The notes below the pieces were generated by a model. That model had not been told where the DNA came from. It worked only from the letters and a program-made list of their open reading frames with translations, and made no database searches. From assembly GCF_003600625.1 (NCBI RefSeq), contig NZ_CP032489.1, positions 3,968,001 through 4,032,000 of the forward strand: a stretch of DNA of 64,000 nt. The letters are read 5' to 3'. Source of the stretch: Arachidicoccus soli. GTDB taxonomy: Bacteria > Bacteroidota > Bacteroidia > Chitinophagales > Chitinophagaceae. Position 1 is the stretch's first letter; each line of letters starts with the position of its first letter. This document shows positions 56,771 to 62,673 of this stretch, piece after piece. The position numbers and the translations under genes are program-made.

Positions 56771-57955
56771 TTAAAATAGTTCTGCCGGATTAATTGTCAA
56801 AAATTCATCCCATGCCAACCCGCTTTTGCCTACCAATAATATTTTATGAGGCTTATACTGATTTTTAAATTCTTCCATTCCCGAAGTGTTGCCAGCAATT
56901 CCGCTTTTCACTTCAATGCCGATAATCTTGCCCCGCTTTTCTATCACAAAATCCACTTCACTATACCTGTGCCGCCAATAATAAACTTTAAAATTTTCCG
57001 TAAGGGAATAATTGATTAAATGCGCTCCGATAGCGGATTCTACAATTCTGCCCCTCTCTGCCGTATTTTCCTGGATTTCTTGAAATAGTTTCGCTCGTTG
57101 TGCGCTGATAAGCGCCGTGTTATGCACCTGGAATTTAGGACTTGATGCACGCTTGCGAATGATGTCCGCAGCATAAATTTCTATACCAGCCAATAATCCT
57201 GCCGTATCCAACAAATCCAAATAATGTGAAAGCGTTGTCGTATTGCCTGCATCTTGCAATTGCCCCTGCATTTTGGTATAAGAAAGTATTTGACCCGAAT
57301 ACAGGCATCCTAATTCAAATAAACGTTTCATAAGGGCAGGTTTATCTACTCTTGTAAGCATCAATATATCTTTGGATATACTTGTTTCAATCAAAGAATC
57401 GCTTACATAGCGTTTCCATCTTTCCTCGTCATCAATCAATGCGGCAGAACCCGGATAACCGCCGAACCAAGCGTATTGGTTTGCATTCCATCCGAAAGCT
57501 GTTTGCATTTCCGAAAAACTCCAATGTCCCAAATAAATACTTTCAAAACGACCTGCCAATGACTCCGTTAAACCGCGCTGCAGCAACAATCTGGATGAGC
57601 CTAATAAGATTACTTTGATATTCGTTGAAGTTCTGCTGTCCTCGTCCCAAAGACGCTTGACAATCTCGCTCCAATTATCTATTTTTTGGATTTCGTCTAT
57701 AATCAGTAAAAATTCCGTTGCATTATTTTGCTGCATTCTCAATCTGGCTGTTTCCCAAATCTGCTCAATCCAAATCGTATTTACCGATGCAACAGCATCG
57801 GCGGATTCAAAGAGATAAGGAAATGTAATCTTTTTAGCCAATTGTGTAACCAATGTGGTTTTACCTACCTGTCTTGGGCCTACCAATACTTGTATATGTT
57901 TTCTTGCTTCATTGATGCGTTTTGCAAGTGTTTGTAACTGAATTCTCTCGTACAT
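56771..57955 (-). CDS. AAA ATPase with DUF4143 and nuclease-like C terminus (first copy)
   Basis: The 394-residue protein has Walker A GPRQVGKT at residues 26-33, Walker B LLIIDEIQKI near 82-91, and the sensor-like VILLGSSRLLLQRGLTESLAGRFE. A DUF4143 region follows, with a winged-helix-like middle. The C terminus SEVDFVIEKRGKIIGIEVKSG fits a PD-(D/E)xK-type fold (Asp, then ExK). The family is common on mobile DNA and its cellular job is not settled; roles in DNA binding or defence have been proposed. It stands alone, with a tandem operator-like site right upstream, and is not a close copy of the second ATPase. Confidence 0.9.
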   Translation of the reverse strand: MYERIQLQTLAKRINEARKHIQVLVGPRQVGKTTLVTQLAKKITFPYLFESADAVASVNTIWIEQIWETARLRMQQNNATEFLLIIDEIQKIDNWSEIVKRLWDEDSRTSTNIKVILLGSSRLLLQRGLTESLAGRFESIYLGHWSFSEMQTAFGWNANQYAWFGGYPGSAALIDDEERWKRYVSDSLIETSISKDILMLTRVDKPALMKRLFELGCLYSGQILSYTKMQGQLQDAGNTTTLSHYLDLLDTAGLLAGIEIYAADIIRKRASSPKFQVHNTALISAQRAKLFQEIQENTAERGRIVESAIGAHLINYSLTENFKVYYWRHRYSEVDFVIEKRGKIIGIEVKSGIAGNTSGMEEFKNQYKPHKILLVGKSGLAWDEFLTINPAELF

Positions 57956-57965
57956 ATTTTACAAA

Positions 57966-58007
57966 TTACTCAATATAATGAGTAAAATTACTCAATATTC
58001 TGAATAA
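57966..58007. promoter_or_regulatory. Tandem palindromic operator upstream of the first DUF4143 ATPase
   Basis: Two palindromes TTACTCA-N6-TGAGTAA (57966-57985) and TTACTCA-N6-TGAATAA (57988-58007) are spaced 22 bp centre to centre, two helical turns. The nearer one is 10 bp from the start codon at 57955. This is what cooperative binding of a dimeric repressor would need. The IS left end is only 21 bp beyond. Confidence 0.6.
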
Positions 58008-58028
58008 AATGTTTTTTTCAATATTAAA

Positions 58029-58054
58029 CTATAACCCTAAAAGAATTAGGTAAT
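58029..58054 (+). repeat. Left inverted repeat of the IS
   Basis: CTATAACCCTAAAAGAATTA then GGTAAT. It is the inverted counterpart of 59640-59666. Confidence 0.9.
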
Positions 58055-58142
58055 CGAGGTCAATAAGATGTAGAGAAATAATAGGAAATACTTGTTTTCT
58101 ATTATTTTTTTCTTTTATTTTGGATTACCTAAATAGGTTATA

Positions 58143-59648
58143 ATGAAAAAAGCAACAAAACCTACAAGTTCCCACCCGCAATGGGTAACTAAACACAAGC
58201 AATCGGGAACGGAGATAAAAAAAATCAATGGCAGGTATTACCTGTATGCAGTAACTTCCAGATACGATAAATCAATCGGCAGGGCAAAGAAAATATCATT
58301 AGGTATATTAGGCAGTATCAGCGAAACAGAAGGGTTTATACCATCAGAGAAGAAATCTTTGCGTGAAAAAGCCGGTAAAACCTATTGCGGCAAAGAAGCT
58401 TTCGCCGTAGAATACGGTTATGCCTTCTGGCTTATGGCCTTATTGGAAGATGCAAATATTTTACCCCGGCTTCAAACACTATTTCCCGATTTATGGCAAT
58501 TTATTGTTTCAATGGTTTATTGCCGTACAGCTTATCAAAGCCCTTTAAAAAACGTTCCTTTTCATCTGGAGCACGCTGACATTTGCCAACAACTCGGATG
58601 GGAAATATCTTTAAGCGATCAAAAGATGAGTGATTTTCTTTTTAATCTCGGTACTAAAGAAGCCTCCATTCACGCCTATTTAGAACCGTCAAAGAAGAAC
58701 CGTACCTGCGTATTGGTAGATGCGACAGATATTGTCAGTCATTCTAAGAATATACCCATTGTAGAAAAAGGATATAACGCCCGAATGGATTTTAGCCCTC
58801 AGTTTGTCTTACTGTACTTATATGATGCAGCCACACTCCAACCCTTATATTACCGTATTATTCCTGGGAACATCAGAGAAGTAACCGCCATGAAGAACAC
58901 CATAGCTGCCAGCGGCATCCAGCAATGTATATTTATAGCGGATAAAGGATTTTTCAGCGAAAACAATATAGCGTCTTTAGAAGCAGCCCAATTGCAGTAC
59001 ATTATCCCTTTAAGAAGAGGCAACAAGCACATTGCTTACAATGAGTTGAAGGATATAGAACTGGGCGACAATCATTTTGAATACGCAAAACGGCATATAT
59101 TCTTTACCACCCCCTCTCCAACAGCAGCAGGCAGGACAGTTTGCCTTTATTTGGACGGTATGCTCAAAGAGCAGGAAAAGAATGATTATTTATCAAGAAT
59201 AAGTTCTGTCCCCGAATATTATGACAAGGAGGACTTTAAAAATAAAGTCGGCAGAATGGGAACACTTGGAATTATACATAATACTTCCATGAATGCCGAA
59301 GATATTTATCTTGAATACAAGCAAAGAGGAGATATAGAGCAGTTCTTTGACCAGCTCAAAAACACATTATCTGCATCTTCCTCTTACATGCAGCGGGAAG
59401 AATCATTGAAGGGCTGGATGTTCATTAACCATATCAGCATGGAGGTTATTTACAAAATCTATCAAATGTTAAAAACCACACCACTCAATAAAAAACAAAA
59501 CCTCAACCATAAATACTCCATCGCAGATACAATAGCGCATATGAAAACAATTAAGAAAATAAGATTCTCTCAAAATGAATTCATCATTACGGAAACCGAT
59601 AAAATGACCAGAATATTATTGGATAAACTGAAAATTTCTATTACCTAA
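58143..59648 (+). CDS. IS1634-family (IS4-like) DDE transposase
   Basis: The 501-residue transposase has the first catalytic Asp in CVLVDATDIVSHSKN and the second in CIFIADKGFFSENNI. The Glu is within the YREK signature YKQRGDIEQFFDQLK (Y-2-R-3-E-6-K). The N-terminal region KKINGRYYLYAVTSRYDKSIGRAKKISLGILGSI is typical of the IS1634/IS4 group. The frame is uninterrupted, so it is probably active. It lies between the inverted repeats, with its stop codon overlapping the right repeat. Confidence 0.95.
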   Translation: MKKATKPTSSHPQWVTKHKQSGTEIKKINGRYYLYAVTSRYDKSIGRAKKISLGILGSISETEGFIPSEKKSLREKAGKTYCGKEAFAVEYGYAFWLMALLEDANILPRLQTLFPDLWQFIVSMVYCRTAYQSPLKNVPFHLEHADICQQLGWEISLSDQKMSDFLFNLGTKEASIHAYLEPSKKNRTCVLVDATDIVSHSKNIPIVEKGYNARMDFSPQFVLLYLYDAATLQPLYYRIIPGNIREVTAMKNTIAASGIQQCIFIADKGFFSENNIASLEAAQLQYIIPLRRGNKHIAYNELKDIELGDNHFEYAKRHIFFTTPSPTAAGRTVCLYLDGMLKEQEKNDYLSRISSVPEYYDKEDFKNKVGRMGTLGIIHNTSMNAEDIYLEYKQRGDIEQFFDQLKNTLSASSSYMQREESLKGWMFINHISMEVIYKIYQMLKTTPLNKKQNLNHKYSIADTIAHMKTIKKIRFSQNEFIITETDKMTRILLDKLKISIT

Positions 59649-59666
59649 AATTCTTTAGGGTTATAG
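59640..59666 (+). repeat. Right inverted repeat of the IS
   Basis: ATTACCTAAAATTCTTTAGG then GTTATAG. It mirrors 58029-58054 and carries the transposase stop codon. Confidence 0.9.
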
Positions 59667-59745
59667 ATTAAATGTTATGTTTACTCTGGCTATAATTGTC
59701 AACCTAAGAATGACCTGATTTCCTTTATAATACTTCTTACGTTAA

Positions 59746-59948: not shown

Positions 59949-61091
59949 TTATTTAGGTTTATAAGCGACCCAATCCAAATAATTTTGTTGATGAATAATA
60001 TCATAAACTGCATTGGGATATGCACTAAGAAAAGCTGTAGGTTTTTTGATTTTGGCATTGCCCCATTTACATTCCATAGCTTTAAGATGCTGTTTGTTGT
60101 CCAGTTCCAAAAAATCAATTTCCTGATTGTCATAAGTGCGCCAGAAAAAGTATTGGGGGAAATATTGATGATAAGTGTTTACTTTAATTCTTTCACTTAA
60201 AATATATTGTTCCCAGAGTTGTCCAACGTCATTTCTTGCAGCTAAAGGATTAAAATTAGAAATAATGGCATTACGAATGCCATTATCATAGAAAAACCAT
60301 TTTTTCCTTTTGCTGATTTCTTTTCTCAAATTATTGCTGTATCCGGATAACGGGAAAATAATAAAGACCTTAGAAAGTAAATCAAGATAGCGGTCAACTG
60401 TTGCCCGGCTAATCTGCAAGCTATTACCCAGTTCAACTGTATTAACTTCACTACCTACCTGCCAAGCTAGCATTTGCAGCAGACGGTACAAAATATCTGC
60501 TCCCTTGATTTTTTCATAAGAAAGTACGTCTTTCAGCAAGTAACTGTTCACAAGGTGCTTCAGGTAAATTTCCTTTTCATTATCATCATTAAGATGCCAT
60601 AATTCGGGATATGAACCATAAATAAGGCGTTGTTCCAGATTTCGCGTGGTGGTCAAATAATCTTCTATCTGTGATAGCTCTATTTGTGCAATTGGGTATA
60701 AGGTGAAAACAACAGAGCGTCCAACCAAAGGTTCGCCAGAAAATGACTGCAAGTCAAAGCTGCTGCTTCCAGTCGCAATAATAGTAATACCTTTAATATT
60801 GTCTATTATGAACTTTAATATCATACCAATATTAGGAACTGCCTGCGCTTCGTCTATAATGATAAGTTTCTTACCGGCTATCAGACGGACATAATTAGAA
60901 AGCGTTCGATCCTGTAAAAGAGAGGCCACTTGTAAATCTTCGCCCTGTAGCAATAATAAAGATGGGTATTTGCCGACAATATTTTCTACTATGGTAGATT
61001 TGCCGGTTCTTCGGGTACCGTATAATAGCACAACTTTCTGCTTTCCTATTTGCGCTTCAATCTGTTGTTGTATTAAACGTGGGATGTCCAT
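59949..61091 (-). CDS. AAA ATPase with DUF4143 (second copy)
   Basis: The 380-residue protein has Walker A GTRRTGKS at residues 25-32, Walker B LIIIDEAQAV and the sensor region IIATGSSSFDLQSFSGEPLVGRSVVF. DUF4143 follows with a helix-turn-helix-like VNTVELGNSLQISRATVDRYLDLL. The C terminus QEIDFLELDNKQHLKAMECKWG has an Asp/ExK-like arrangement (ECK). It is the same architecture as the ATPase at 56771-57955 but only distantly similar. It lies alone, with a 28-bp palindrome 13 bp before its start. Confidence 0.9.
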   Translation of the reverse strand: MDIPRLIQQQIEAQIGKQKVVLLYGTRRTGKSTIVENIVGKYPSLLLLQGEDLQVASLLQDRTLSNYVRLIAGKKLIIIDEAQAVPNIGMILKFIIDNIKGITIIATGSSSFDLQSFSGEPLVGRSVVFTLYPIAQIELSQIEDYLTTTRNLEQRLIYGSYPELWHLNDDNEKEIYLKHLVNSYLLKDVLSYEKIKGADILYRLLQMLAWQVGSEVNTVELGNSLQISRATVDRYLDLLSKVFIIFPLSGYSNNLRKEISKRKKWFFYDNGIRNAIISNFNPLAARNDVGQLWEQYILSERIKVNTYHQYFPQYFFWRTYDNQEIDFLELDNKQHLKAMECKWGNAKIKKPTAFLSAYPNAVYDIIHQQNYLDWVAYKPK

Positions 61092-61104
61092 TTTTCACTC
61101 ATGT

Positions 61105-61132
61105 TTGACGCAATTTACATTAATTACGTCAA
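61105..61132. promoter_or_regulatory. 28-bp palindromic operator upstream of the second DUF4143 ATPase
   Basis: Half-sites TTGACGCAATT and AATTACGTCAA differ from perfect symmetry at one position and are separated by 6 bases. The site is 13 bp before the start codon at 61091, placed to block transcription or translation start. Confidence 0.6.
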
Positions 61133-61200
61133 TCAAAAATCTTAATTTTTATAAAAAGTGCAATTGTGTGCTTTTAATTATAGTAAAATAACGAAAAATA

Positions 61201-61229
61201 TGAGCCGAATAATTGAAATAATCGGCTCA
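61201..61229. repeat. 29-bp palindromic repeat, copy B
   Basis: Same TGAGCCGAATA...TAATCGGCTCA unit as copies A and C, but with a different centre. Unlike A and C it does not follow a HEPN sequence. Confidence 0.85.
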
Positions 61230-61440: not shown

Positions 61441-61662
61441 TCAATTTTTGCTCGCCTTTTTCTTGTTTTTAAACACAGGACGAGCGTTACCGCCTTTCAA
61501 TTTGGCCAGTTCATCCGCTTGTTCTTGAATCCTTTTCGCCTGTTCGTCATTGCGCTGGCTCAAAACCTCTACTGCATCAACTAGAATCTCCAGTGCTTTG
61601 CGGAGTTCATTAATGTCGTCAATTTTTGCAAACTGCATGGTTTTGATACGATCAAGAATCAT
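61441..61662 (-). CDS. Small coiled-coil protein, possibly a transposase N-terminal remnant
   Basis: The 73-residue frame (or 65 from the internal ATG at 61638) is a single coiled coil ending RIQEQADELAKLKGGNARPV then KNKKKASKN. The LAKLKGGxxRPxxK pattern resembles the N-terminal region of some IS66-like/ISNCY transposases, so this may be a truncated transposase. It may also be a genuine small protein. A GGGAT-N4-ATCCC palindrome (61664-61677) abuts the start. Low certainty. Confidence 0.4.
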   Translation of the reverse strand: MILDRIKTMQFAKIDDINELRKALEILVDAVEVLSQRNDEQAKRIQEQADELAKLKGGNARPVFKNKKKASKN

Positions 61663-61809
61663 AGGGATAAAGATCCCAATTAAATCGATAAAAAAATAAG
61701 GTGGGGATATCTATCGCCAACTATATTAAAACATCTCTACATATTTAACGAATGTGGATAACATACGTCGATTTCTCAAGTTTCCCCGGACTTTTTGAGG
61801 GGATACAAG

Positions 61810-61878: not shown

Positions 61879-61896
61879 TAAAAAATAATTAACTAA

Positions 61897-61925
61897 TGAG
61901 CCGAATAGTCCGAATAATCGGCTCA
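61897..61925. repeat. 29-bp palindromic repeat, copy C
   Basis: Eight bases from the HEPN stop codon on the minus strand. The stem TGAGCCGA/TCGGCTCA followed by TTAGTTAATTATTTTTT on the minus strand could work as the terminator of the MNT-HEPN pair. Confidence 0.85.
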
Positions 61926-61932
61926 CAAAACC

Positions 61933-62340
61933 CTATAGTTTTGGGCCGAATAAATCAGATAAGTATTCTTCCGTTAATAGCAAAAATGTTCGGGCTTGCT
62001 TTATGAGATTGTCCGCTTCCTCTGTCGTAATCTCTGCATCAAAATCATAATCGGCATTCTGTCGATTATCAAACAATAAGCTCGCAATGTCTGATGCTTT
62101 CTGTGGGATAAGACCGTTTTTAATAAACAGTTCGGTAAATTTTGTTTTTACTCCCTGATGCGTTTTTGCATATACATCTTTTGTGTATAAAAGGGCTGTC
62201 ATGCAATAATAACAAGCATAGTAAGCACGATTAGCTGTTGCAAGTGTAAAACCACCGTTTAAATCGTATTCGGCGTTTTCCAATGCTTCTATTGCTTTAT
62301 CCAAAACTTTTTGGACTTCGGTATTCAAAGGCTTATTCAT
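61933..62340 (-). CDS. HEPN-domain protein, toxin half of a MNT-HEPN pair
   Basis: The 135-residue helical protein has the HEPN features ALENAEYDLNGGFTLATANRAYYACYYCMTALLY and TEEADNLIKQARTFLLLTEEYLSDLF. In HEPN-MNT systems the HEPN protein is an RNase-like toxin and the partner nucleotidyltransferase adds AMP to silence it. Its ATG overlaps the stop of the MNT gene by 4 bp (ATGA), indicating tight coupling. The catalytic R-x4-6-H motif is not seen in full, so activity is uncertain. Confidence 0.88.
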   Translation of the reverse strand: MNKPLNTEVQKVLDKAIEALENAEYDLNGGFTLATANRAYYACYYCMTALLYTKDVYAKTHQGVKTKFTELFIKNGLIPQKASDIASLLFDNRQNADYDFDAEITTEEADNLIKQARTFLLLTEEYLSDLFGPKL

Positions 62341-62660
62341 ATTGTAATACCGTCTTTACGAATTTCTCTGTAAACACCCAACATAGAGGTTTGCTTTTTA
62401 TGAAGCGCTACGGGCAAGGATGATATTGCTACACCATATTTTATGGATAAACGGGAAGAAAGCGGAGATGTTTTTATTAATTCTGCTGAAGCCCTTGTAT
62501 CCGGACTATGGAGCACAATCGCAAAATCTATATCGGATTCTTCGTGATAATCGCCTCTTGCATGAGAGCCGAACAATACCAATTCAGCTAATTCATTACC
62601 ATAAATTTGCTGAAGATTGGTTTTATACTCCTTTGCTATTTGTGCAACACGATTGTCCAT
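62337..62660 (-). CDS. Minimal nucleotidyltransferase (MNT), antitoxin half
   Basis: With ATG at 62660 the product is 107 residues (a GTG two codons upstream overlaps the -7 box and is unlikely). The active site is GSHARGDYHEESDID, an exact GSx10DxD motif. It should transfer AMP (or NMP) to the HEPN partner. It is the first gene of the pair, overlapping hepN by 4 bp. Confidence 0.92.
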   Translation of the reverse strand: MDNRVAQIAKEYKTNLQQIYGNELAELVLFGSHARGDYHEESDIDFAIVLHSPDTRASAELIKTSPLSSRLSIKYGVAISSLPVALHKKQTSMLGVYREIRKDGITI

Positions 62661-62665
62661 AACCA

Positions 62666-62673
62666 CAAAGGTA
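62666..62673 (-). promoter_or_regulatory. -7 promoter element of the MNT-HEPN pair
   Basis: The minus strand reads TACCTTTG, matching TAnnTTTG, and ends 5 bp before the MNT ATG. The transcript would start at or next to the ATG, that is be leaderless or nearly so. No -33 TTG is seen. Confidence 0.45.

Follow-up and report, generated by a model that had tools for sequence, protein, structure and literature searches.

A private palindrome before the gene of a DUF4143 ATPase

We analyzed a 64,000-nucleotide stretch of the Arachidicoccus soli genome (contig NZ_CP032489.1, positions 3,968,001 to 4,032,000; hereafter the window), which encodes two ATPases of the DUF4143 family, here called ATPase 1 and ATPase 2. 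The ATPase 2 gene is preceded by a 28-bp palindrome (61105-61132). Repeats at this position are common upstream of DUF4143 genes. They are conserved among close relatives, mostly differ between paralogs, are often helically phased, and covary with the winged helix-turn-helix (wHTH) domain of the encoded protein. Each protein probably binds its own site through this domain and represses its own promoter.

On the plus strand, the palindrome reads 5'-TTGACGCAATT TACATT AATTACGTCAA-3'. Its arms pair at 10 of 11 positions (as 14-nt arms, they are 86% complementary). ATPase 2 is encoded by a minus-strand open reading frame (59949-61091) with the ATG at 61089-61091, leaving a gap of 13 bp to the palindrome, exactly as described in the initial annotation. 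By itself, the palindrome is marginal and weak against chance. Taking 11-bp arms with no more than one mismatch and a 0-10 loop as criterion, an equally good palindrome was present in 317 of 5000 dinucleotide shuffles (6%) of the 100 bp upstream of ATPase 2, and in 69 of 5000 when only the nearest 60 bp were considered. The site was underrated (p about 0.22) by a crude palindrome score that penalizes mismatches heavily.

The palindrome becomes convincing because orthologs keep it. In 8 of 9 ATPase 2 orthologs (61-71% protein identity), the 130 bp before the start contain a match to 19-24 of the 28 positions, located 21-56 bp from the start (p <= 0.01 each, 500 shuffles per gene). The site of ortholog L086, CTGACTTAATTAATGTAAATTAGGTCAG, follows the same 28-bp layout as that of ATPase 2, which reads TTGACGTAATTAATGTAAATTGCGTCAA on the reverse strand. 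In L084, the core AATTNNNNNAAATT is repeated in 32-bp steps at about -44, -76 and -108, and partly also in L086 and L088. In the 4.1-Mb genome, the ATPase 2 site occurs once, even with up to three mismatches allowed.

ATPase 1 (394 amino acids; 56771-57955, minus strand) is the second DUF4143 protein of the window. Its perfect site, TTACTCAATATAATGAGTAA, is found 10 bp before its ATG (57966-57985) and is followed by a second, degenerate tandem copy (57988-58007) with a period of 22 bp. The site is kept in the orthologs L043-L046, in which TTTACTCA...TGAGTAA repeats adjoin the ATG and the flanks further out differ. Comparison of the ATPase 1 and ATPase 2 sites confirmed that they are unrelated in sequence. 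The two proteins had also been presented as two stand-alone family members, but the genome actually has 11.

Like the ATPase 2 site, the ATPase 1 site was found only at its own gene within the genome. This confinement of both tested sites argues against a host regulon and in favor of self-regulation, for which a conserved site at the own promoter and nowhere else in the genome is the expected pattern.

Upstream repeats are general in the family

The survey set comprised 145 non-identical DUF4143 genes, drawn from genomes of Bacteroidota plus a small number of other records, with archaeal members outside the sample. For each gene, inverted and direct repeats in the 100 bp upstream were evaluated by comparison with 200 dinucleotide shuffles; ordinary neighbor genes of the DUF4143 loci, taken from the same DNA, served as controls. 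A significant inverted repeat was present in 57% of the DUF4143 genes and a direct repeat in 41%. Repeats of either type were found in 78% at p <= 0.05 and in 68% at p <= 0.005, compared to 15% of 161 control genes. After redundancy clustering, repeats were present in 78% of the clusters at 60% identity (n = 83) and in 67% of those at 45% (n = 15). The search for near-start palindromes in many DUF4143 genes, as proposed in the initial annotation, has therefore been carried out with a positive result, with the correction that direct repeats often take the place of simple palindromes.

Many of the palindromes are near-perfect and 35-60 bp long (for example TGACTGAATTAACGTAAATTGCGTCAGTTAACTGACGCAATTTACGTTAATTCAGTCA in L168), and the inverted repeats are centered at a median distance of 31.5 bp upstream of the ATG. 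The periods of the direct repeats cluster at 22 and 32 bp, and some fall at 41-42 and 51 bp; one subfamily contributes many of the 32-bp cases. These periods are near multiples of the DNA turn, as expected for proteins bound on one face of the helix. Mismatches in the palindromes are of the G-U type in 32 and of the A-C type in 31 cases, and thus without RNA-hairpin bias. The helical periods and the G-U/A-C symmetry together favor protein-bound DNA.

Among plasmid-borne members from outside Bacteroidota, 9 of 18 had repeats at p <= 0.05. In Moraxella bovis (L125), a perfect 45-bp palindrome lies 5 bp before the ATG, and in Salipiger (L281), 22-bp direct repeats are found upstream. The upstream sites are strongest in Bacteroidota and elsewhere weaker, or less sampled.

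Sites are private to subfamilies and covary with the winged helix

Paralogs in a single genome rarely share a site. Across eight genomes that each contain several members, 37 of 48 genes have one, yet only 7 of 143 same-genome pairs have it in common. For pairs from different genomes with 60-80% protein identity, the upstream site is common in 70%, while the same pairs share sequence in 0% of cases at -260 to -180 and in 3% after the stop codon. At 40-50% protein identity, a few per cent of the pairs share upstream sequence. The sites are thus private in the sense of the initial annotation with regard to paralogs, but not with regard to close orthologs; they belong to a subfamily rather than to a single gene.

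Covariation between the site and the middle domain of the protein had been named as a further check. We used pairs at 38-62% identity, with overall identity removed and no tree correction. The alignment columns that best track site similarity are Y320, A230, K261, T148, Y67, D321, W265, K257, G250 and S228 (ATPase 2 numbering). Top columns concentrate in residues 225-266, the predicted recognition helix and wing, which account for 7 to 11 of the top 20 columns (hypergeometric p from 3e-3 to 6e-7 depending on the identity range; Mann-Whitney p about 0.001).

The predicted recognition helix (residues 229-241; 60369-60407, minus strand) contains site-covarying columns. In the AlphaFold model, it follows a helix at residues 218-225, an arrangement that fits a recognition helix. 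In the wing region (residues 250-265; 60297-60344, minus strand), columns 250, 257, 261 and 265 covary with the site; model confidence is low here and the wing is poorly resolved. The model as a whole is weak (predicted local distance difference test score, pLDDT, 62; alignment of 9 sequences), and the fold search based on it was used for the AAA+ core only.

Domains of the ATPases

ATPase 2 (380 amino acids) combines an AAA_14 ATPase domain, a predicted wHTH in the middle and a PD-(D/E)XK domain (DUF4143). Pfam matches are clear for AAA_14 (PF13173, E=2.6e-23, 82.9 bits versus a cut-off of 27) and for DUF4143 (PF13635, E=1.3e-36, 126.2 bits versus 28.1). Walker A (GTRRTGKST, residues 25-33; 60993-61019, minus strand) and Walker B (LIIIDEAQ) are both intact. 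At the C-terminus, the PD-(D/E)XK core consists of E294, D326 and E340-x-K342 (60066-60212, minus strand). These residues and E324 are invariant in relatives, and their equivalents are invariant across paralogs. The residue set is the one expected of a PD-(D/E)XK nuclease, and a nuclease is predicted on this basis.

In PADLOC, both proteins are assigned to phage defence candidate, single gene 01 (PDC-S01). ATPase 2 matches PDLC04789 over residues 1-375 of 380 (E=3.6e-149), and ATPase 1, a DUF4143 protein also by Pfam, matches PDLC04791 over its full length (E=2.5e-186). No NCBIfam family was above cut-off for the window ATPases, and searches of solved structures gave no match beyond the P-loop region. 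Most named close relatives of ATPase 2 are from Chitinophagales and other Bacteroidota.

Proposed self-recognition and alternative explanations

In the favored explanation, the palindrome would serve as the cognate DNA site for the adjacent ATPase. Besides its AAA+ motor and its PD-(D/E)XK nuclease-like domain, this protein has a predicted DNA-binding winged helix, which would read the private site. At least two protomers, joined by AAA+ oligomerization, would occupy the symmetric or helically phased half-sites and cover the core promoter and transcription start, so that the expression of the gene itself is kept low. Some signal may then release or redirect ATP hydrolysis and the nuclease domain. 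We infer binding, the oligomeric mode, repression, cleavage and the role of ATP and nuclease from the sequence patterns. The earlier proposal that each ATPase recognizes its own DNA is supported by the family survey and the covariation, which suggest that the site is a private tag by which each protein putatively recognizes its own gene.

Several observations weigh against autoregulation through private sites, or limit its support. The control genes were not other helix-turn-helix (HTH) regulators, and the enrichment cannot separate the family from ordinary self-regulating repressors. About 20% of DUF4143 genes have no significant repeat by our score. The site overlaps the promoter in 85 of 95 cases, a count that lacks a proper control, and promoter elements in these genomes are degenerate. 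The covariation ignores phylogeny, and the strong columns 320-321 are outside the wHTH, before the nuclease strand. Finally, some genes carry a copy of the site after the stop codon, which is not needed for promoter repression.

In the main rival explanation, the sites would delimit a mobile single-gene unit, consisting of repeats and gene, on one side or on both, and the ATPase-nuclease could use its private site to move or copy this unit. We consider this unlikely, but compatible with autoregulation; a self-regulatory site may additionally mark the end of such a unit. A near-full copy of the own palindrome follows the stop codon in 8 of 66 genes with enough downstream sequence (L102, L130, L093, L111, L065, L058, L094 and L096). 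Their private palindromes are 37-49 bp long, and the downstream copies end 40-101 bp past the stop codon. In a cross-comparison, the near-identical downstream copies matched their own upstream site, and other good matches were mainly to genes at 64-74% identity, so that at least five site types are represented. However, the other 58 genes lack a near-full downstream copy, and none was seen for the window ATPase genes.

Shared blocks also bear on mobility. L006 and L074, from two species of one genus (97% protein identity), have in common a block of 1358 bp with 94.7% DNA identity, which contains the repeats and the ATPase gene and starts 109 bp upstream of the ATG and ends 10 bp past the stop codon, in unrelated surroundings. 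It is located at G000:C1:2226440-2227797 (L216, 5441-6798; G000 is the window genome) and at G147:C1:852833-854190 (L217). No other strong DNA match between the two loci was found within about 12 kb. L063 and L064 (about 90% identity) likewise have essentially only repeats and gene in common. Against mobility, horizontal transfer followed by selection on operator and gene could yield similar borders, and the close pairs L158/L168 and L133/L135 are plainly vertical. No target duplication was found in the loci examined, and no clean pre-insertion (empty) site was found in Agrobacterium and Thermus plasmids or in the genus of A. soli. Beside L006, and head to head with it, lies a 128-bp remnant (L216:6867-6994) that is 91% identical to the start of an L005-type gene with its own site.

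Related genomes carry between 0 and 16 DUF4143 copies each, and broken copies are frequent, as would fit mobile units. Broken genes were found at G000:C1:3864054-3865061 (L010), at G000:C1:1663179-1663634 and as fragments in G147; they suggest rapid gain and loss. A doubtful extension would regard the entire AAA_14-wHTH-PD-(D/E)XK family as a large group of selfish elements, each made of one gene, whose protein recognizes private palindromic or iterated DNA at one or both gene ends and spreads or keeps itself by means of motor and nuclease. If true, the phage-defence-candidate label would reflect mobility, not immunity.

It is improbable that the site is an iteron-like assembly platform on which the protein loads, beside its own gene, as an initiator of the ORC/DnaA/Rep type. 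The AAA+ plus wHTH anatomy and the tandem 32-bp iterons of the orthologs L084 (at -108, -76 and -44), L086 and L088 agree with this idea, as do a weak ORC1 match (residues 194-287, E=8e-4) and a fold search that gives ORC, RFC and RuvB among AAA+ proteins. However, the ORC1 NCBIfam equivalog scores 18 bits versus a cut-off of 501, the fold search started from a model of low quality (pLDDT 62), no replicon genes surround the window gene, and many sites are single palindromes.

Even less probable are hairpins in the mRNA leader that hide the ribosome site. In many genes, perfect 15-20-bp stems do adjoin the ATG, but the direct repeats in about 40% of genes need not form a hairpin, some palindromes are located after the stop codon, and mismatches show no G-U preference. 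As a general explanation, leader hairpins were rejected on the basis of the G-U/A-C symmetry and the direct-repeat class. Binding by unrelated host regulators, or mere chance, is very hard to credit: the window palindrome alone has its equal in 6% of shuffles, but the repeats are enriched family-wide, their sharing is confined to close relatives, and both tested sites are at one gene only in the genome. A phage origin was rejected (8 of 50,697 phage records; for ATPase 2, no relative on a viral contig).

Neighborhood of the window genes

Next to ATPase 2 is a HEPN and nucleotidyltransferase pair (61933-62666), the architecture stated for PDC-M05 (PMC12988326). Near-identical terminator-like hairpins (ATGAGCCGAATA...AATCGGCTCA) are found 696 bp apart, at 61200-61229 and, directly after the HEPN gene, at 61896-61925. 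A 365-bp sequence upstream of ATPase 2 (61444-61808), present in three genome copies at 99-100% identity, overlaps a short minus-strand open reading frame (read by eye). Between the two ATPase genes lies an insertion sequence-like element with a DDE transposase gene (58022-59675; four near-identical genome copies), inserted about 15 bp past the second ATPase 1 site.

Comparison with known systems

Self-operators are ordinary for HTH proteins. Self-regulating HTH repressors, such as TetR and type II antitoxins, have a palindrome over their own promoter that is common to close relatives only, and the DUF4143 family is like them in both respects. What sets the family apart from these repressors is that its DNA-reading domain is joined to an AAA+ motor and a nuclease-like domain, that 32-bp iterons occur among its sites, and that in some of its genes a further copy of the site follows the stop codon. 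ORC1/Cdc6 and DnaA (AAA+) and iteron-binding Rep proteins (wHTH) bind repeats near their own gene, and thus resemble the DUF4143 family in having an AAA+ or wHTH domain and repeats beside the gene. They differ from the DUF4143 family, which has a PD-(D/E)XK domain, lacks a curated match, and can be present in as many as 16 copies per genome, whose sites differ. The nearest solved small AAA+ protein by P-loop region is the archaeal ATPase SSO1545 (PDB 2fna, E=4.9e-5), with a match that covers only about 55 residues.

The archaeal cluster arCOG03166, in which HTH and RecB nuclease domains are joined to an AAA+ ATPase, is abundant in variable islands and was annotated as "likely involved in defense (or some plasmid gene)" (PMC4158269). 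Compared by description only, its domain order is like that of the window proteins; cognate sites are not described in the excerpted account (PMC4158269). PDC-S01, an ATPase fused to a PD-(D/E)XK domain, is reported as the fourth commonest prokaryotic defence candidate, with 29,494 bacterial and 9,986 archaeal cases (PMC12988326). The window proteins match it over their full length and have the same fusion, and its description, as excerpted, makes no mention of private DNA sites (PMC12988326). The defence role of PDC-S01 is that of an unvalidated candidate.

The initial annotation had remarked that recognition of own DNA is not usually described for this family. In agreement, literature on DUF4143, COG1373 and PDC-S01 gave no description of cognate sites, with many subscription papers and preprints not covered. 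As far as the searched literature shows, what is new is that private sites, in some cases two-sided, are the rule throughout an abundant family of AAA+ nucleases. Matched protein-site pairs form a natural set from which the determinants of wHTH sequence specificity could be learned, and the arrangement of sites at both ends raises the question of whether these are defence genes or selfish genes. A predictable gene-specific DNA ligand beside the gene would make the function of PDC-S01 testable with a defined oligonucleotide for each protein.
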